Below, piece after piece: positions 1 to 9,352 of a stretch of 10,080 nt of DNA. Positions within the stretch are counted from its first letter, which is position 1. Every line of letters begins with the position of its first letter. Position numbers and translations under genes: made by a program. Below the pieces are notes generated by a model. That model was not told where the DNA came from, searched no databases, and worked only from the letters and a program-made list of their open reading frames with translations. This DNA comes from Isotricha intestinalis (Eukaryota; Ciliophora; Litostomatea; Vestibuliferida; Isotrichidae). The stretch covers positions 1-10,080 of the forward strand of contig JAJJLU010001091.1 of assembly GCA_023807065.1 (NCBI GenBank), given 5' to 3'.

Positions 1-66
1 CCCAATCCCCAATCCCCAATCCCCAATCCCCAATCCCCAATCCCCAATCCCCAATCCCCAATCCCC
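1..66. repeat. Telomeric repeat array, (CCCCAAT)n, left chromosome end
   Basis: The window opens with CCCAAT, then eight perfect tandem copies of CCCCAAT, then a terminal CCCC before the sequence turns AT-rich. A short, perfect C-rich array at the very start of a sequence, with the C-rich strand reading 5' to 3' inward, is the layout of a left telomere; the G-rich strand unit is ATTGGGG. Ciliate macronuclear telomeres are C4A2- or C4A4-type, so this 7-mer is a close relative. The first coding region begins 167 bases further in, which suits compact macronuclear chromosomes. A simple internal minisatellite is possible, but its position at base 1 makes a chromosome end much more likely. Confidence 0.9.
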
Positions 67-232: not shown

Positions 233-1018
233 ATGGGATGCCAATGCAAAAAATGTAAAAATGAAGAAATATTAGAAGAAAAAGATTTAAGACAAATTGA
301 AAATGGAATGAACAATCAGTCAATAGAACAAAAATATGTAGATTTTAATACAAAAGATTCAGTAAATAATAGTTCAAGAAATCCTTTAAGTGTAAGAAAT
401 TTAAAAAATTATGCTTCAAAATATCAAAAAGAAATATCAAATATGAATTATATTACAAGTAATTTATCTTTTTCATTATATGAAATTATAAATAAAATAA
501 GAACAGATCCAAAATTTTTTATAGATAAAATTAAAATATATAAAGAGAAAATAATAAGAAAAGATTATCAATTTTTATTACCAATTGAGAAAGAAATTTT
601 TATAACTTTAAATAGAGGTCCAAAAGCCTTTGATGAAGCAATAGAATATTTGAATAAATTAGAACCTATGAATTCTTTAATAATGAAAAATGAATTAAAA
701 ATTGATATTGATAATACCATTAATAATTTTGAAATGAATTTTACATCTTTTTCTTTTTTAGAAAAAATAATAAAAAATAAAAAAAAAGAATTAGAAAAAA
801 ATAAAAAAAATTATAAAATTGAAGGTTTTCATTATGATAAAAGTACTAATAATGCTGAAATAAGTGCAATTCTTCAAATTGTTGATGATAATATGGGTGA
901 TTGTTCTAGAAGAAAGAATTTACTTAATCCTCATTTTACTTATGTTGGGATTTCATGTGTAAATATTAAAGAAAATGTATTTTGTTATTATATGTTATTT
1001 GCTAATAAAAAAAATTAA
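233..1018 (+). CDS. Divergent CAP/SCP-domain protein with Cys-rich N-terminus
   Basis: 261-residue protein. The C-terminal half (about residues 76-258) follows the layout of protist CAP (CRISP/Antigen 5/PR-1, SCP-like) proteins. It has an opening NKIRTDP element at 87-93, the helix ending in EAIEYLNKLEP at 135-145, and the strand block at 215-242 containing IVDDN, RRKN and YVGISC. In typical members that last block reads roughly DDG...GHRKN...GIA. Here the usual GH before RKN is replaced by CSR, and the earlier GH and HxxN elements that give the metal-binding cavity are absent, so canonical metal binding is doubtful. The N-terminus is MGCQCKKCK: Gly2 followed by Cys3, Cys5 and Cys8, typical of N-myristoylated and palmitoylated membrane-anchored proteins. 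There is no signal peptide, so it is probably cytosolic-face rather than secreted. Residues 10-75 are polar linker. No intron is needed. The family call is good; the function is unknown. Confidence 0.8.
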   Translation: MGCQCKKCKNEEILEEKDLRQIENGMNNQSIEQKYVDFNTKDSVNNSSRNPLSVRNLKNYASKYQKEISNMNYITSNLSFSLYEIINKIRTDPKFFIDKIKIYKEKIIRKDYQFLLPIEKEIFITLNRGPKAFDEAIEYLNKLEPMNSLIMKNELKIDIDNTINNFEMNFTSFSFLEKIIKNKKKELEKNKKNYKIEGFHYDKSTNNAEISAILQIVDDNMGDCSRRKNLLNPHFTYVGISCVNIKENVFCYYMLFANKKN

Positions 1019-2373: not shown

Positions 2374-3789
2374 ATGTCAGCCGAAGCATCAACATTAGAA
2401 GAATTAAAGCAAAAAAAAATATCTTTAGAAAATGAAATATCATCTTTAGAATCTCAATTACAAATATCATTAGAAAAAGAAAAATTACATCAATCAACTT
2501 TATCAAAAATAAAAAAAATTCAAAGTGAATATGAACAAAGTTATTTATCTTCATTAAATGATTATAAAAACAGAGAAAATTCTTTAAAATCACAATTTTT
2601 AAATTATCAAAATCTTTTAGAAAAACAATATAATGAAAGTGAAAAAAGATTAAACGATGAAATAACATTATTAAAAAATCAATTAAAGCAAAAAGATGAA
2701 ATAATATCAACATTACAAAAACAAGCAAATGATTTAAATAATACTTTATCAAAAGGAGAATTAGACTTTCATTTTAAAGAAAAAAAATTACAAGAAGATA
2801 TTTTATCAAAAACAAGAAGAATTGATGAATTAAAAGAACATGGTCAAGAACTGGCAAAAGGAGCACAAGAAGAAATTGAAAAATTATTAGTTGAATTAGA
2901 AACTTATCATCAACAAAGAAAAAGCAATAATAATAATGAAGTTAATTTAAATAATATGAATAATAATAATGTTGTTGATGAAAATATGGGAAATTTAAAT
3001 GTTAATGAAGAAGTTGAAATTCCAAATAGTGAATTGGATACTAATATTAATTCTAATATGCGATCAAATTCTATTCTTTCTCCTATTATTCAAGGTTCTT
3101 TATTACAAATGAATACTCCTGAAAATAATAGTATTAATTTTAATAATAACATGAATAATAATATAAATAATGTTAATTTTACTGATTCTAAAATTCAAAT
3201 TTATACTTTAGAAAGTGAAAATAGAGCATTGAAAGAAGAATTGATGAAAAAAGAAGAAGATTTAAATTTTTGGAAAAGTATCAGAGAAAATTTAAATAAA
3301 AATGTTACTCATTCTATAAATAGAAATGATTATTATAGTACAATGAAAATTCAACAATTGGAAAAAATATTATTTGATTATGGAAAAAAAATTAATGATT
3401 TAAAAAATTTATATAATAGGACTTTAATAGAGCAAAGAAGAGAAAAAGAAGAATTAAAAAGAAATTATGAAAATAATTTAACTCAAATGCAGAATTTAAA
3501 TTTAAATACTAATAATTTGAATGTAAGTAATAATATTATCAATATAGAAAATACAAATAATTCAATGGGTAATAAAAGTCCTTCCGTTAATTTAAGCCCT
3601 CAAAAAATTCCAACTAGTCCTTCCAATAATAATGTTAATTTAAATAATATTTTAAACACTATTCCTTCTGCTACTGAAAATACAGTTACTAATTCTAATT
3701 ATAATTTTATAAATAACGAAGAAGGAATGAGAAATCAATTTATTCAAGAAAAATTAGAAAGTATTAAAAAAAATAATCCTGATATTTAA
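2374..3789 (+). CDS. Asn-rich coiled-coil protein, function unknown
   Basis: 471 residues, starting at an ATG after an A-rich leader. Residues about 5-182 form a long heptad-rich coiled coil dense in Leu, Lys, Glu and Gln. Residues 184-270 are low-complexity and Asn-rich. Residues 271-375 form a second coiled coil with a central LNFW patch near 297-300. The tail from 376 is again Asn-rich and holds proline-directed phosphorylation-type motifs at 402-417 (KSPS, LSPQK, TSPS). No catalytic motif, signal peptide or membrane segment is present. Such proteins in ciliates are often structural parts of the cortex, basal bodies or cilia, but nothing here fixes a role. Asn runs are common in AT-rich protist genomes (AAT/AAC codons). 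A 138-residue Phe/Leu-rich frame on the opposite strand is its shadow. Confidence 0.85.
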   Translation: MSAEASTLEELKQKKISLENEISSLESQLQISLEKEKLHQSTLSKIKKIQSEYEQSYLSSLNDYKNRENSLKSQFLNYQNLLEKQYNESEKRLNDEITLLKNQLKQKDEIISTLQKQANDLNNTLSKGELDFHFKEKKLQEDILSKTRRIDELKEHGQELAKGAQEEIEKLLVELETYHQQRKSNNNNEVNLNNMNNNNVVDENMGNLNVNEEVEIPNSELDTNINSNMRSNSILSPIIQGSLLQMNTPENNSINFNNNMNNNINNVNFTDSKIQIYTLESENRALKEELMKKEEDLNFWKSIRENLNKNVTHSINRNDYYSTMKIQQLEKILFDYGKKINDLKNLYNRTLIEQRREKEELKRNYENNLTQMQNLNLNTNNLNVSNNIINIENTNNSMGNKSPSVNLSPQKIPTSPSNNNVNLNNILNTIPSATENTVTNSNYNFINNEEGMRNQFIQEKLESIKKNNPDI

Positions 3790-4180
3790 AAGAAACTTTT
3801 GTTTTTTTTAATTTTTGTTTTTAAAGACTTTTAATTTTTTTTAAATTTTTTTTGAATATTAATTGGATAGAAATTATTAGAGAATAAATATTCAAAAGAT
3901 GATAAATAGGTTATAAGAAGAAAGCTATTGACAAATTATATATAAAGAAGATAATTATCATTGAAATGAAATAATGAATAATATTATTTCAAATATTAAT
4001 AAAAAAATATTATATATGATTCCTCATAATAACATTCAAAGACTAGATTTTTTCAAATAAGACATTAATTATGGAAATTTAATTTTATGAATAAATCTAT
4101 ATTATTTAAAAATCTTTGAACTCCAGAATAAAAACAATAATAAAAAGATTAAAATAAATTTTTCAAAATAGAAATAAAGA
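3790..4180. other. Convergent intergenic spacer
   Basis: About 390 bases between two genes whose 3' ends face each other. It is A/T-rich with a T-run just after the upstream stop, as expected for two 3' untranslated regions. I see no gene, hairpin or repeat in it. Confidence 0.6.
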
Positions 4181-6175
4181 TTAATAATGATAATATTCTT
4201 TCAATCCAAAATAAACTTTATTTTTATCAGGTTCTATTCCCCAAACATTTTTAATTAAATCTTCAAATTCTTCATCTTTTGATATACAGATAGAAATTTG
4301 ATTATAAAAATTAATAAATTCACCAAAATTCATTAAATCCATAGCTGCTTTATTTTTTACGAAACCATATTCTTTAAATATATCTAAATAATATTTTAAT
4401 TCACTTTTTACCATATCTTTATTCTTTCTTCCTGAAATCACATCAGGATCTCTTTCATAATTATAATCATTTAATATATCTTTTATTTTCACATATCCAT
4501 TTACATCAGGTCTTAAAGAAATAAAAATTTTTTTTACTAAATCTGCTCTATTTTCTGGCATATTATCAACTAAAGATTTTATTACTAAATCATAATCAAT
4601 CATTTTTGTTTGATATTTATCAAAAATATTTTCTAATTCTTCAACTTCCTCTTTATTAAGTGAATAATTATAACATATATTTTCAAAAATCTTATAATCT
4701 ACTTTACCTGTTCTTCCTATATCAGAATTATAGAAATTTCTTTCAATTTCAAATAAACCTTTTTTACCCAATGAAAGTATATAATTTCTTAATTTTGTTA
4801 TAGGATTTTGACGAGGCAACCAATATTTATTTTTGGAACTTAAGTTATTATTTTCATTTAAATTAGTTTCTTGAATAATATTTTGAGTGTTTAATGTATT
4901 GTCTTTATAATTATCAAATTTTTTTTCATATAGATTTTGAGAAATGAAAATATTGCTAATCATATTATTAAAAATTGAATCACTTGCAAAAGTTGCAGAA
5001 ATACCAGTAAAAAATTCAAGGAAATCATCAAAGGACATTTTATCTTTTAATCCCTTATATATATTAAAATTATTTAAAGAAAACATAAATTCTTTATATA
5101 TCTCATCAGCAGTTTTTTTTCCTGAAATAACTTCTGGATGATTATTTGGGTTAAATAATCTTTTTAATTTTTCAATATCGACATAATTTTTTCTTTCTGA
5201 ATCTAAATAAGCAAAAACTTCAATGATTACTTTTCTTCTAATATCACTTAAATAACCTCTTAATAGTCTTAAAATTTCAACAATAGAAACTTTGTTATGG
5301 TTATAAATATCCAAAATTCGATAAAAATCTTTTATATTTATTTTACTATAGTTTATTTTAGCCTCATTCAGACAAGAAACAAAATCCTCAAATGTTATTG
5401 TTCCAGTTATAGGGTCTTGTTTATTTTTTAATAAAATACTTAAATAAGAATAAATCATACTATTAGAATTTATTTCATATTGTAATAATTGAACAAGAGA
5501 CTGGAGATATCTTCTTACACCTTCTGATTCTCCTTTTTCCCAAACTTTTATTCTATATTGATTAGGATGCATTAATTGGTTATCCATTGAATATTGTTGA
5601 ATGTAAGAATTATTATCTTTAAATTTATAATCATATTGAATATAGTTATCCGGATTTAATTGATTTATTTCTAAGGTTGATGAATTACTAAAATTATTAT
5701 TTTGGGGGTTTTCATAATTTGAGTTTTGAGAATATTTATAATTTATATTTTCATTGGTTTGATTATTTATATTTATGGTATTTAGGTTTTGTTCTTTTAT
5801 GTTATATGAATTACTATAATTAATGTTATAATTTGAATTTTTATTTTCTTCTTTATTATAATTAATATTATTATTTATATTTGGTTGATTTATATTAAAT
5901 TGAAGTTTTGAAAAATATTCACTAAAAATTAAATAATTTACAAGACCTGAATCATTTGTATCATAGATATAAAATAATGTATCAAGGTCATTATCACTAA
6001 AATTATTTAATCCCAAATTTTTAAAAGTTAATTGCCATCCATCTCTATTAACAAAACCTGTTTTATTATTATCATATATTGAAAATGCTCTATCTAATAT
6101 TAATTTTTTATTAGTAGATGAAGATAATTTTTGGAACAATTCGTATTCAAATGCATTTCTTAAAGCTGAAGTCAT
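4181..6175 (-). CDS. Calcyphosin-like EF-hand protein with tandem calcyphosin modules
   Basis: 664 residues. The N-terminus (about 24-92) is an EF-hand pair with loops near 35-46 (DNNKTGFVNRDG) and 72-83 (DTNDSGLVN). Both keep the Asp/Asn and central Gly but lack the final Glu, so calcium binding may be weak. Residues 95-200 are an Asn/Tyr-rich linker. The middle (about 205-412) and the end (about 452-650) each follow the calcyphosin plan: an EF-hand pair, then the hallmark HPEVISGKK (346-354) or DPDVISGRK (576-584), a helix, a loop before FDDFLEFF or NFGEFINFY, and an ISA/ISI strand followed by the F-x2-hydrophobic-I-x-N-hydrophobic-W/F helix. Calcyphosin and CAPSL are normally about 200 residues, so this is a multi-module version, as in larger ciliary axonemal EF-hand proteins (CFAP115-type; inference). 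Intronless. Its 3' end faces the coiled-coil gene. Confidence 0.85.
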   Translation of the reverse strand: MTSALRNAFEYELFQKLSSSTNKKLILDRAFSIYDNNKTGFVNRDGWQLTFKNLGLNNFSDNDLDTLFYIYDTNDSGLVNYLIFSEYFSKLQFNINQPNINNNINYNKEENKNSNYNINYSNSYNIKEQNLNTININNQTNENINYKYSQNSNYENPQNNNFSNSSTLEINQLNPDNYIQYDYKFKDNNSYIQQYSMDNQLMHPNQYRIKVWEKGESEGVRRYLQSLVQLLQYEINSNSMIYSYLSILLKNKQDPITGTITFEDFVSCLNEAKINYSKINIKDFYRILDIYNHNKVSIVEILRLLRGYLSDIRRKVIIEVFAYLDSERKNYVDIEKLKRLFNPNNHPEVISGKKTADEIYKEFMFSLNNFNIYKGLKDKMSFDDFLEFFTGISATFASDSIFNNMISNIFISQNLYEKKFDNYKDNTLNTQNIIQETNLNENNNLSSKNKYWLPRQNPITKLRNYILSLGKKGLFEIERNFYNSDIGRTGKVDYKIFENICYNYSLNKEEVEELENIFDKYQTKMIDYDLVIKSLVDNMPENRADLVKKIFISLRPDVNGYVKIKDILNDYNYERDPDVISGRKNKDMVKSELKYYLDIFKEYGFVKNKAAMDLMNFGEFINFYNQISICISKDEEFEDLIKNVWGIEPDKNKVYFGLKEYYHY

Positions 6176-7560: not shown

Positions 7561-7857
7561 TTATTCAAGTAAATGTTTTTCTTTCTTCATTATGATAATT
7601 ATTCATATACTTTTTGCTGTGAAATAAATAATAATTTTACTTTCTACATTTTTATTTTTTTTTACTTCCTTAGAATTAAAAAAATTATACACACTAAATC
7701 TTAGTCATAAATTTTACTTTCTAAAATTATTTAATATTTACAGGCTATTTTAAACTTATTTATAAAATACACACTAATCATTAATAAATAATATACTATC
7801 TAAGATAATTATCAATGATTTACTTCCTTTAGATGAATTAAAAAATAATCTGACATG
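7561..7857 (-). other. Exon block E: CPxC knuckle and stop codon
   Basis: Exons: 7855-7857 H, 7824-7826 E, 7797-7799 I, 7771-7773 C, 7742-7744 P, 7718-7720 K, 7691-7693 C, 7666-7668 E, 7641-7643 K, 7611-7616 Q K, then 7561-7584 KEKHLLE and TAA. Every intron here is GT-AG, 21-28 nt, so this is the cleanest part of the array. C74 and C77 (CPKC) form the second knuckle. If the last intron (7585-7610, 26 nt) is not removed, the frame instead runs on from QK to VYE and stops at TAA 7599-7601. Confidence 0.78.
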
Positions 7858-9352
7858 CTTAAAATAAAAAAAGAAATATTACATCATAACACTAATTTTA
7901 GTAAAAATATCATTATACAACATAAAAAATAAATAATATTATTTTAATTCCTATAATTCATAAATCAATATTATCATATATACTATATTATAATTAATTC
8001 TTGAATTTACATACTAAAAGTGAATTAATATTAATTACAGGCTATATTATTAATGAATTATTAAAGCTTACTTTCTATCATTAATGTTTATATTGAACCT
8101 ATAATTATTAATAGTATTTTACATACTAAAAATAATTATTTAAAAAACTTACAGACTATAATTAATTAATAATATTTCTTATTCTCTGAAATTGAATATA
8201 CAATTATTTTACCCCCTGATAATTAAAAATATTTTCTTAAAATCAATATCAATTAAATATTTAATTTTACTCCTTACTATTAATTAATATTAATGTCTTA
8301 TAGACTATTATTTATAATATTATTTTACTTCCTATAATTATAAAATAACTTCAAATTACCTAAAATAAATCATATTATCTTACAGACTGAAATAATAATA
8401 AAAATAATATTTATTACAAATTATAATAAATCAATAATATTATCTTATTTGCTTTCAATGATTTGATAATATTTTTTACTTTCTAAATTAACTAATAAAA
8501 TAATTCTTACTTTCTATGATAGGTAATAACTTATCTAACTATCTAAAAATAATTATTGATATTATCGTATAAACTAAAATTAATTAATAATTATTTTTAA
8601 CCCATTATAATAAATTAAAGATATTATCTTATTAACTATAATTATTAATAATGTTGTTTTTCATCCTATAATTAATGTAATTTTACTCTCTATGATTAAT
8701 CCATAATAATACATCCTTTAATTAAAAAAACTATCTTTTACTTTTTATATTTTATTAATAATATTATCTTATATTCTATAATTAATAAAAAATATTATTG
8801 AACTCCCTAATATGAATTAATATCTTACAAATTGAAATGCTTTAATAATATTATCTTATTGGCTTTTATTTTTTTTATTTCTTTTTTTTACTTCCTATTT
8901 TGAATTTTAATTTTACTTTCTATAATTATTTTTTTATTGACTTCCTTGATTGATAATTATTATTTTAATTTACACCCTTCTTATTATTATTTTTATTACT
9001 TTCTTATATTATTTTTTATTTAACCCACTTTTTTTATTATTATTTTACAAACTATTTTAAAATTATTATTTTACTTGCTTTTTTTGTTTAAAGAAATTTA
9101 TTACATACTAACAATTAATTATTTTTACATGCTTTAGTATTATTATTATTATTCTAACACACTAAAATTATTATTATTATACTTCCTGTTAAAATTAACA
9201 ATATTGAAACAGTCTATTTAGATTTTTTATTAATATTTACGCACTAATATTATGCATTCAATACCCTTAAACACTATATAATTATTTTACCTTATTTCCC
9301 ATATATCTATGGGGTTTCCTATAACTTGAATAGTTGTTTTGTTTGATGACAT
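7561..9352 (-). CDS. Zinc-ribbon-like protein encoded by about 58 exons, most of them one codon long
   Basis: Not visible as an ORF. On the minus strand the stretch is a string of units AG|NNN|GT. The NNN triplet varies while the flanks stay TAG/AAG/CAG and GTAA/GTAT/GTTA. Exon 1 (9352-9296) has 19 codons; after it come about 52 exons of exactly 3 nt and five of 6-24 nt, ending in TAA. Introns are mostly 21-30 nt and all fall between codons. Joined, about 88 codons contain no stop, although roughly one random triplet in ten here would be one. The triplets are also enriched in TGT, TGC, TGG, GGA, CCT and CCA compared with the flanks. The product has Cys at about 20, 23, 26, 68, 74 and 77, giving CxxC and CPxC knuckles about 47 residues apart, with W, F and Y in between: the plan of a small zinc ribbon. 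The exact family, and so the role, is unknown. Only about 15% of the span is coding. Exon coordinates are in the five block entries; a few junctions are ambiguous. Confidence 0.8.
7883..8185 (-). other. Exon block D: Tyr-rich segment before the second knuckle
   Basis: Exons: 8183-8185 R, 8153-8155 S, 8123-8125 Y, 8072-8074 K, 8039-8041 P, 8011-8013 Y, 7980-7982 Y, 7948-7950 E, 7883-7891 C Y D. Introns at 8156-8182 and 7951-7979 begin AT and end AG. Between 8123 and 8074 two 24-nt GT-AG introns abut exactly at 8099/8098 (TAG then GTTC), so either a zero-length exon (recursive splice point) or one 48-nt intron is implied. The stretch 7892-7947 after the E codon begins TT and is 56 nt; this is the least certain junction in the gene. 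Confidence 0.6.
8274..8301 (-). other. AT-AA intron, 28 nt
   Basis: Starts ATAAGACATTAATATT and ends ATAGTAA, between TCT (S) and GGA (G). The internal ATAG would give a 6-nt exon TAAGGA, with an in-frame stop. The AA ending avoids the stop and gives one codon. Confidence 0.6.
8421..8448 (-). other. AT-AA intron, 28 nt
   Basis: Starts ATAAGATAATATTATT and ends TTATTATAA, between CAA (Q) and TTT (F). Its 3' half nearly matches that of the intron at 8605-8632. Confidence 0.62.
8605..8632 (-). other. AT-AA intron, 28 nt
   Basis: Starts ATAAGATAATAT and ends TTATTATAA, between TTA (L) and TGG (W). No AG occurs in a position that would give a frame-keeping exon here. A Trp codon follows directly and then a GTTA 5' splice site. 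Confidence 0.62.
8745..8772 (-). other. AT-AA intron, 28 nt
   Basis: Starts ATAAGATAATATTATT and ends ATATAA, between AAT (N) and AAA (K); the next intron then starts GTAAAAG. The length equals that of the other AT-AA introns. Confidence 0.62.
8832..8859 (-). other. AT-AA intron, 28 nt
   Basis: Starts ATAAGATAATATTATT and ends CAA, between the codons CCA (P) and TTT (F). An AAAG inside it could serve as a 3' splice site, but that would make an 11-nt exon and break the frame. Ending at AA after exactly 28 nt leaves a single codon and keeps phase. Confidence 0.62.
9025..9352 (-). other. Exon block A: start exon and first CxxC knuckle
   Basis: Exon 1 is 9296-9352, starting MSSNK and ending IDIWE; its ATG sits in the same A-rich context as the other genes. 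Exon 2 is 9265-9273 (CLR) after a 22-nt AT-AG intron (9274-9295). Single-codon exons then follow: 9241-9243 C, 9211-9213 T, 9183-9185 E, 9159-9161 C, 9129-9131 H, 9105-9107 Y, 9075-9077 Q, 9049-9051 F, 9025-9027 W. The introns between them are 21-27 nt, all GT-AG (GTAA, GTAT, GTTA or GTTT starts; TAG, AAG or CAG ends). C23 and C26 form the first knuckle. The exon 1/exon 2 junction has an alternative reading, given in the findings. Confidence 0.78.

Follow-up and report, generated by a model that had tools for sequence, protein, structure and literature searches.

The window analysed here is a whole contig of 10,080 nucleotides (nt) from the ciliate Isotricha intestinalis (JAJJLU010001091.1). 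On its minus strand there is very probably a gene belonging to a family in which intron-like segments of 21-31 nt lie between triplets that spell a common motif. These segments are likely to be spliced out, and the roughly 60 exons, 55 of them single codons, would then encode a zinc-ribbon-like protein of about 85 residues. The fixed spacing of 3 nt, the open frame of the family, the motif common to loci on different contigs and the concentration of changes at third codon positions are direct observations. A preliminary description of the window had proposed a gene of single-codon exons and tiny introns in a ciliate; the motif shared by 9 of 17 loci that were picked by spacing, together with the third-position bias, supports this proposal at the level of sequence.

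Spacing of the sites and reading of the triplets

The regular minus-strand series of AG-NNN-GT, on which that description was built, is borne out by simple counts. Between 7540 and 9360, the minus strand contains 17 occurrences of TAGNNNGTAA and 38 of AGNNNGT, and neither occurs on the plus strand of this stretch; in the remaining minus strand of the window we find 0 and 4, respectively. When the number k of bases between AG and GT is varied from 0 to 12 in this stretch, there are 38 occurrences at k = 3 and between 1 and 8 at every other value.

The window is the entire contig C891 of a 57.3-Mb assembly of 2153 contigs. Throughout this genome, two consecutive TAGNNNGTAA sites occur 617 times, compared with 31 for the reversed pattern, and three consecutive strict sites occur 11 times, compared with 0 in the reversed control. 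From the first approximately 100 double-site matches listed (up to contig C519) we took 19 stretches, 17 of which had usable arrays. Together with the window and 8 loci chosen by motif, these make up the pooled set of 26 loci. Note that L046 (6 triplets) and L049 (none) were excluded from the counts, and that L050 is one base.

A count in the 26 loci that does not involve any parser gives 1044 occurrences of AG-N3-GT on the array strand versus 53-198 at k = 0-2 and 4-18; it rises to 336 over k = 19-30, as the next unit comes within reach. The opposite strand shows no such excess: it has 59 occurrences at k = 3, inside the range of 34-87 seen at other spacings up to 18. Chance is excluded as a source of the single-codon spacing pattern. 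In the pooled parse, 1113 of 1149 exons are 3 nt long, and 1003 of the 1123 introns begin with GT and 1082 end with AG. The exons are thus fixed at 3 nt, while the intron lengths (median 26) are spread over the three classes modulo 3 as 398/395/330. The GC content is 28.7% in exons versus 4.8% inside introns. Furthermore, exons of 3 nt seldom start with GT (12/1113) or end with AG (5/1113), a count made without a control; this would be expected if exons must not resemble splice sites.

When the triplets are joined, loci on different contigs spell WE(L/I)R-CxxCxYxFWKGExxP-[variable]-ICxDDxxCPxCG (with R or K in the fourth place), which we refer to as the family A motif. Nine of the 17 loci chosen by spacing only have it in whole or in part, namely L033, L035, L037, L039, L040, L042, L043, L045 and L047, with L040, L043 and L045 as partial members. 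Four others (L031, L032, L034 and L041) are in another phase; read by eye, they start with C-F-K-C or similar, and L032, L034 and L041 have a CxxC at the end. A third group consists of L044 and L048, and neither L036 nor L038 can be assigned to a family. The preliminary description dealt with the window gene; its coding array stands, and the gene is a member of a family and not a singleton.

The separated codons can also be sought directly. F, W and K as three separated codons are found at 15 sites of the genome including the window, and P, any residue and C at 7 sites, again including the window; the reversed control has 0 of either. In frame 0, the 18 family A loci have 4 stops versus approximately 92 expected from shuffled bases, and the one open frame of the 6 phase-1 loci has 0 versus approximately 20 (both summed over loci). 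Among 13 conserved columns, the pairwise differences number 108, 115 and 312 at codon positions 1, 2 and 3, that is, 312 of 535 are at the third. The sister copies L061 (C1349) and L062 (C1306), and also those on C748 and C1954, match in their conserved ends intron by intron, and their middles differ in length and codons. On C748 and C1954 the FWK site lies at most 60 bases from the contig start, and the contig ends inside the array.

Gene model and splicing of the window copy

The loci were parsed by dynamic programming with weights for donor, acceptor, intron length and exon length (3 preferred), and in the window the early exons were corrected against the sister loci. The resulting model has 60 exons and 59 introns, the latter 21-31 nt long and 45 of them GT-AG (Table 1). 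Of the exons, 55 measure exactly 3 nt; the others are the first (62 nt), the second (1 nt), the final one (18 nt) and two of 6 and 9 nt. Earlier figures of about 58 exons, about 52 of them single codons, come near this model and are replaced by it. The predicted product is MSSNKTTIQVIGNPIDIWEIRCTECHYQFWKGEKEPFGNKDRDLWFIKKQFSVES(TAA?)GIGRSYVKPYYEVCYDHEICPKCEKQKVYE followed by a stop, that is, 85 residues and one doubtful TAA. An open frame, previously put at about 88 codons and described as stop-free, is therefore retained with 85 sense codons, but it is not stop-free in the best parse. The paired CxxC motifs that had been noticed are CTEC and CPKC.

Table 1. Features of the window, with positions counted from its first base
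Feature	Positions	Strand	Remarks
Telomeric repeat (CCCCAAT)n	1..66	+	Contig end; marks a macronuclear chromosome end
Intronless frame	233..1018	+	261 residues; sub-threshold Pfam match alone
EF-hand protein	4181..6175	-	664 residues, intronless; 99% match standing for 36 ENA sequences
Window gene	9352..7599	-	60 exons and 59 introns in the model
Exon 1	9291..9352	-	62 nt, ATG...TGG GAA ATA AG; encodes MSSNKTTIQVIGNPIDIWEI and two bases of an R codon
Exon 2	9265..9265	-	Single nucleotide G, finishing the R codon; introns of 25 nt upstream and 21 nt downstream, both GT-AG
Codon array	7641..9243	-	57 exons, of which 55 have 3 nt and the other two 6 and 9 nt; introns 21-31 nt
Conserved N-terminal motif	9000..9243	-	CTECHYQFWK, one codon per exon; from the family alignment
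Variable middle of array	7948..8831	-	All 14 non-GT-AG introns lie within it or at its edges (7922-8859)
Doubtful exon	8271..8276	-	TAAGGA with in-frame TAA; from the parse
Conserved C-terminal motif	7691..7891	-	CYDHEICPKC; 9-nt exon at 7883-7891, then single-codon exons
Last exon	7599..7616	-	18 nt, CAA AAA GTA TAT GAA TAA, QKVYE and stop in the standard code

Exon 1 ends in WE[LI] followed by AG or AA, and this ending is found again in other family A loci. The single-nucleotide exon follows exon 1, ahead of the first C codon, and completes an R or K codon. By pattern, such an exon (A) is present in nine other loci (L033, L035, L037, L039, L042, L047, L056, L057 and L058). In the window a T elsewhere would fit too, and we read exon 2 as the G at 9265 because R/K is conserved.

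The end of the gene depends on the genetic code. Three neighbouring genes contain 0 TAA, TAG or TGA in 1396 codons and each ends with TAA; the genetic code is the standard one, and a ciliate code in which TAA and TAG stand for glutamine was rejected on the same count. The standard code has also been described for Muniziella cunhai (PMC11316547, consulted in part). The preliminary description had let the gene run to 7561 with TAA and TAG as sense codons, which has to be abandoned, as the stop of the last exon is the TAA at 7599-7601.

We consider it likely that the 21-31-nt segments are removed by the ordinary spliceosome. In this mechanism each segment would be recognised by intron definition, with U1 pairing with GTAAG-like donors, and approximately 60 exons would be joined into the message for one small protein. 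The genome has two U6 genes, one U1 gene and a Prp8 U6-binding domain, and the U1 gene holds ACTTACCTG near its 5' end, which is able to pair with GTAAGT. A parse that ignores position +5 finds G there in 66 of 120 non-GT donors versus 159 of 977 GT-AG introns, and a Mantel-Haenszel comparison inside loci gives an odds ratio of 17 in the standard parse, which scores +5; these counts lose weight in that the introns of one locus are related and hence not independent. The G at +5 of weak donors may compensate through pairing with U1 and U6. Introns other than GT-AG are concentrated in the variable middle (79/357 in 13 loci, versus 18/318 in the conserved ends). The first and last intron bases appear to be coupled, as 15 of 71 introns that start with A do not end with G, versus 3 of 1033 that start with G. 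Since this coupling is weaker in a neutral parse and partly a parser effect, we set it aside as main evidence. Four 28-nt segments of the window's minus strand (8421-8448, 8605-8632, 8745-8772 and 8832-8859) start with ATAAGATAAT and end with AA, and look as if the first and last intron bases had changed jointly from G to A.

Several points speak against a spliced gene of this kind. The parser favours 3-nt exons (weight 0.75) and this biases its exon-length counts; the raw spacing counts alone are free of the bias. The window copy has 14 introns out of 59 that depart from GT-AG (in 13 the donor dinucleotide is what differs), and its best parse includes one in-frame TAA. L036 has no open frame, and L061 seems to have lost one C codon and gained one TAA. 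The loci L055-L062 were picked for a split FWK or CPxC, so that these columns are not independent evidence there. We were not able to find a spliced product: 16 members were searched, and 0 of 3785 candidates matched at E <= 1. A search with the kinase-fused L035 gave one match among 14 candidates, P0032, which is the unspliced exon-1 protein ending in LLIIIL inside the first intron; here a gene finder has run on into the array. Finally, the ordinary genes nearby look near-intronless, and a crude scan between long open frames (163 kb) yielded one weak candidate intron. We also looked for ordinary introns elsewhere and saw no clear ones in L074 (Cpn60-like, with internal stops) or in two tubulin stretches, and the nine best of 16 chaperonin matches are open frames of 547-580 residues without internal stops. 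The stretches that hold the divergent tubulin gene pairs of G000:C1640, C1974 and C1462 have a GC content of about 31%, compared with 14-21% in the array stretches.

Some of these points could mean that only the window copy has decayed, with drifted splice sites in its middle and a stop that has entered, while other members of the family work. The non-GT-AG introns and the TAA of the best parse would fit such a relic, as would the apparently broken sister L061. On the other hand, the remaining 85 codons contain no stop, neither conserved motif is damaged, and the introns around the motifs are GT-AG. In the window, 10 of 13 non-GT donors have G at +5 versus 8 of 43 GT donors, as if compensated, and stop-free members are likewise rich in non-GT-AG introns (18/90 in L037, 13/62 in L042). 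The TAA itself disappears if the preceding intron is of the 28-nt AT...AA type, like four others of the window gene. Decay of this copy has a minor share of our credence, though it would not surprise us.

Similarity of the introns and origin of the arrays

In 15 of 25 arrays (L043 is too short for this table) adjacent introns are 0.57-0.63 identical, which is the level of the between-locus background of 0.60, and the window with 0.61 is one of these; in the other 10 arrays the identity is 0.68-0.86. For example, identities of 0.73-0.86 between adjacent introns go with only 0.32-0.44 of bases shared between adjacent triplets in L036, L038, L041, L042, L055 and L062. In L061, seven identical 28-nt introns lie between CCA, GAA, TTA, GAT, TGG, GGA, GAA and GAA. 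The array of L041 (G000:C439:1-7000, 2452-4738) consists of approximately 50 much-alike introns of about 33 nt with diverse triplets that read strongly hydrophobic. An enrichment of neighbours with the same triplet falls below p = 0.05 in L036 only; in the other 24 of the 25 arrays tested it is not significant.

Identical introns that flank differing codons are a new observation of this analysis. Tandem duplication of units followed by neutral drift was rejected for the arrays with identical introns, since their triplets differ. Either the codons turn over faster than the introns, therefore, or the introns are copied independently of the codons. We propose that units of an intron and one codon would be gained or lost singly, without ever shifting the frame, because the exons stay at a length of exactly 3 nt and each gene keeps a single phase.

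Another conceivable origin, to which we give a minor share of credence, is an Introner-like element that was inserted at every codon boundary of an uninterrupted coding sequence. The run of identical introns in L061 would agree with this, and so would the 80 within-locus pairs of exactly identical introns, which share the left triplet in only 15% and the right one in 17.5% of cases (versus 7% for other pairs). Introner families with a median of 30 nt exist, one of which adds 12 nt to the transcript (PMC9860276, consulted in part). Random insertion, however, would give exons of all lengths and in all phases, and here nearly all have 3 nt and one phase per gene. Moreover, no uninterrupted homologue was found in searches of the genome and databases, although such an absence proves nothing.

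The segments could also be internal eliminated sequences (IESs), removed from DNA during nuclear development, if the assembly represented the germline form. Ciliates do carry out such excision, and the shortest IESs of Paramecium are near 26-28 nt, a length that the segments recall. The contig is capped by a telomere at one end, which would not be expected of germline DNA with such elements, and its DNA is probably somatic (macronuclear) because of this telomere; the segments are thus present on what appears to be a macronuclear chromosome. Furthermore, they end in GT...AG and not in flanking TA repeats, weak donors have a G at +5 as for pairing with U1, and nine loci have a 1-nt exon with a codon split 2+1. 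DNA elimination is accordingly a very improbable explanation. Telomeres of (CCCCAAT)n have been described for Entodinium caudatum (PMC6211341), Balantidium ctenopharyngodoni (PMC10978948) and Muniziella cunhai (PMC11316547), all sources consulted in part. Judged from telomere, code and GC content, the host is probably a gut trichostome (litostome) ciliate.

Least credible of all is a non-coding AT-rich minisatellite with AG-NNN-GT arising from repeat homogenisation: it would account for the much-alike units of L038, L041, L062 and L036 (adjacent introns 0.78-0.86 identical), in which the triplets are less alike than the repeat part; yet many loci have triplets that spell a shared motif, with 4 stops in place of approximately 92, the introns of the window are at background similarity, and look-alikes in viruses and prokaryotes are repeats of another make-up. 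These look-alikes came from a search with a looser AG-NNN-GT-like pattern, which returned 13 viral and 53 prokaryote stretches from collections in which the window's own genome and near ones may be missing. The longest chain of sites among the 66 is 11 (L106, AGG throughout), and the eight stretches inspected by eye are simple tandem repeats in which few types of triplet occur. One prokaryote stretch, L125, has varied site spacing and was considered as an array elsewhere, but it was rejected as a plain repeat in which every triplet is AAA.

Predicted proteins, precedents and significance

Coming back to the spliced gene family, we asked what its products might be. The CxxC and CPxC pairs suggest metal binding, and on this basis the window product is predicted to be zinc-ribbon-like. 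No Pfam zinc ribbon matches above the curated cut-off (the best E among 16 members is 0.007), and a profile search of PDB gave a weak match to ribosomal L37Ae (E 0.02). SH3-like PDB matches at E 0.46-0.65 were judged to be chance, and a LITAF-like identity was dismissed for want of such a Pfam match.

The variable middle has an unusual composition. Its 351 codons in 13 of the 18 family A loci (L040, L043, L047, L057 and L062 being excluded) comprise 8.3% W, 9.4% Y and 8.8% G and no C, compared with 0.4% W, 5.6% Y and 2.5% G in the window's three ordinary genes. There are 2 stops versus approximately 44 expected from position-wise shuffling, and both can be placed in introns by an alternative reading. 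Such a middle, rich in W, Y and G, may be a binding loop.

Exon 1 has a long reading frame in some members and a short one in others, including the window. Ten of 21 first exons were scanned against Pfam. Above the cut-offs we find protein kinase and B-box in L035 and L044, B-box in L048 and Trypsin_2 in L032; in L041 and L060 there are Trypsin_2 and B-box matches below the cut-off, and L033, L034, L047 and L057 have no match at E 0.01. The long exon-1 frame of L047 (G000:C21), without a Pfam match, may resemble an ADP-ribosyltransferase. The split tails would thus come at the end of enzymes and signalling proteins of several kinds, in the manner of a recognition part placed on varied effectors.

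Composition and domain company are also the grounds for a more speculative reading, which we think is rather doubtful: a receptor-like repertoire, with a variable loop between two zinc knuckles that is encoded by single-codon cassettes on near-identical introns and joined to kinase, B-box or trypsin-like parts, so that codons could be gained, lost or swapped singly without loss of frame. On this view the arrays would do, codon by codon, what cassette systems do in the diversification of immune receptors.

Searches of the genome and of databases turned up no contiguous family copy; for the genome search an empty result shows little. Similarly, among the matches listed in a mostly open-access literature without preprints, partly consulted, on 1- and 3-nt exons, ciliates, litostomes and introners, there was no precedent for single-codon exons in series. 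The sources named in the rest of this section were likewise consulted in part. Exons of this size are known one at a time: a constitutive 1-nt exon in APC11 of Arabidopsis (PMC4674806), 1-nt microexons of plants (PMC8831610) and a 3-bp micro-exon in homothorax of Drosophila (PMC7392893). Such exons can be spliced and are overlooked by annotation. As described, however, they stand isolated among normal exons, whereas here the window gene owes most of its coding sequence to dozens in series.

The micro-exon genes of Schistosoma (PMC10526429) have exons of 3-81 bp, introns of up to 5 kbp and variable, secreted products. The likeness lies in the tiny exons and the variable proteins, and 59 of the 60 window exons fall in the range of 3-81 bp, with the 1-nt exon below it. 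In contrast, the introns here have 21-31 nt in place of long ones, nearly all exons are single codons, and in some members the array follows kinase, B-box or trypsin-like domains. The bicycle genes of aphids (PMC9168663) are likewise a fast-evolving family known more by gene structure than by sequence, and microexons are mentioned for them. They are, on the other hand, an animal effector family, and their abstract, on which this comparison relies, does not state single-codon exons. Introners (PMC9860276) come as many near-identical short introns, a feature of some of the arrays and not of the window; some introners add residues, and GA and GC donors occur among them. Their copies are described as spread over many genes of a genome, while here copies occur every 3 nt in one gene and in one phase. 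Finally, the ciliates Stentor (PMC9505925) and Nyctotherus (PMC2633312) also have very short spliceosomal introns, and codon-sized exons are not among the descriptions in the parts seen.

The window gene would need approximately 59 accurate removals with one codon between the cuts, which bears on the standing questions of how exons are defined, how small they can be and how faithfully back-to-back splicing proceeds. It would also represent a class of genes that annotation misses, as exemplified by P0032 and its run into the first intron. Moreover, the usual rule is inverted in several arrays, where the introns are more alike than the codons; these arrays offer a direct test of introns as a scaffold for protein diversity.

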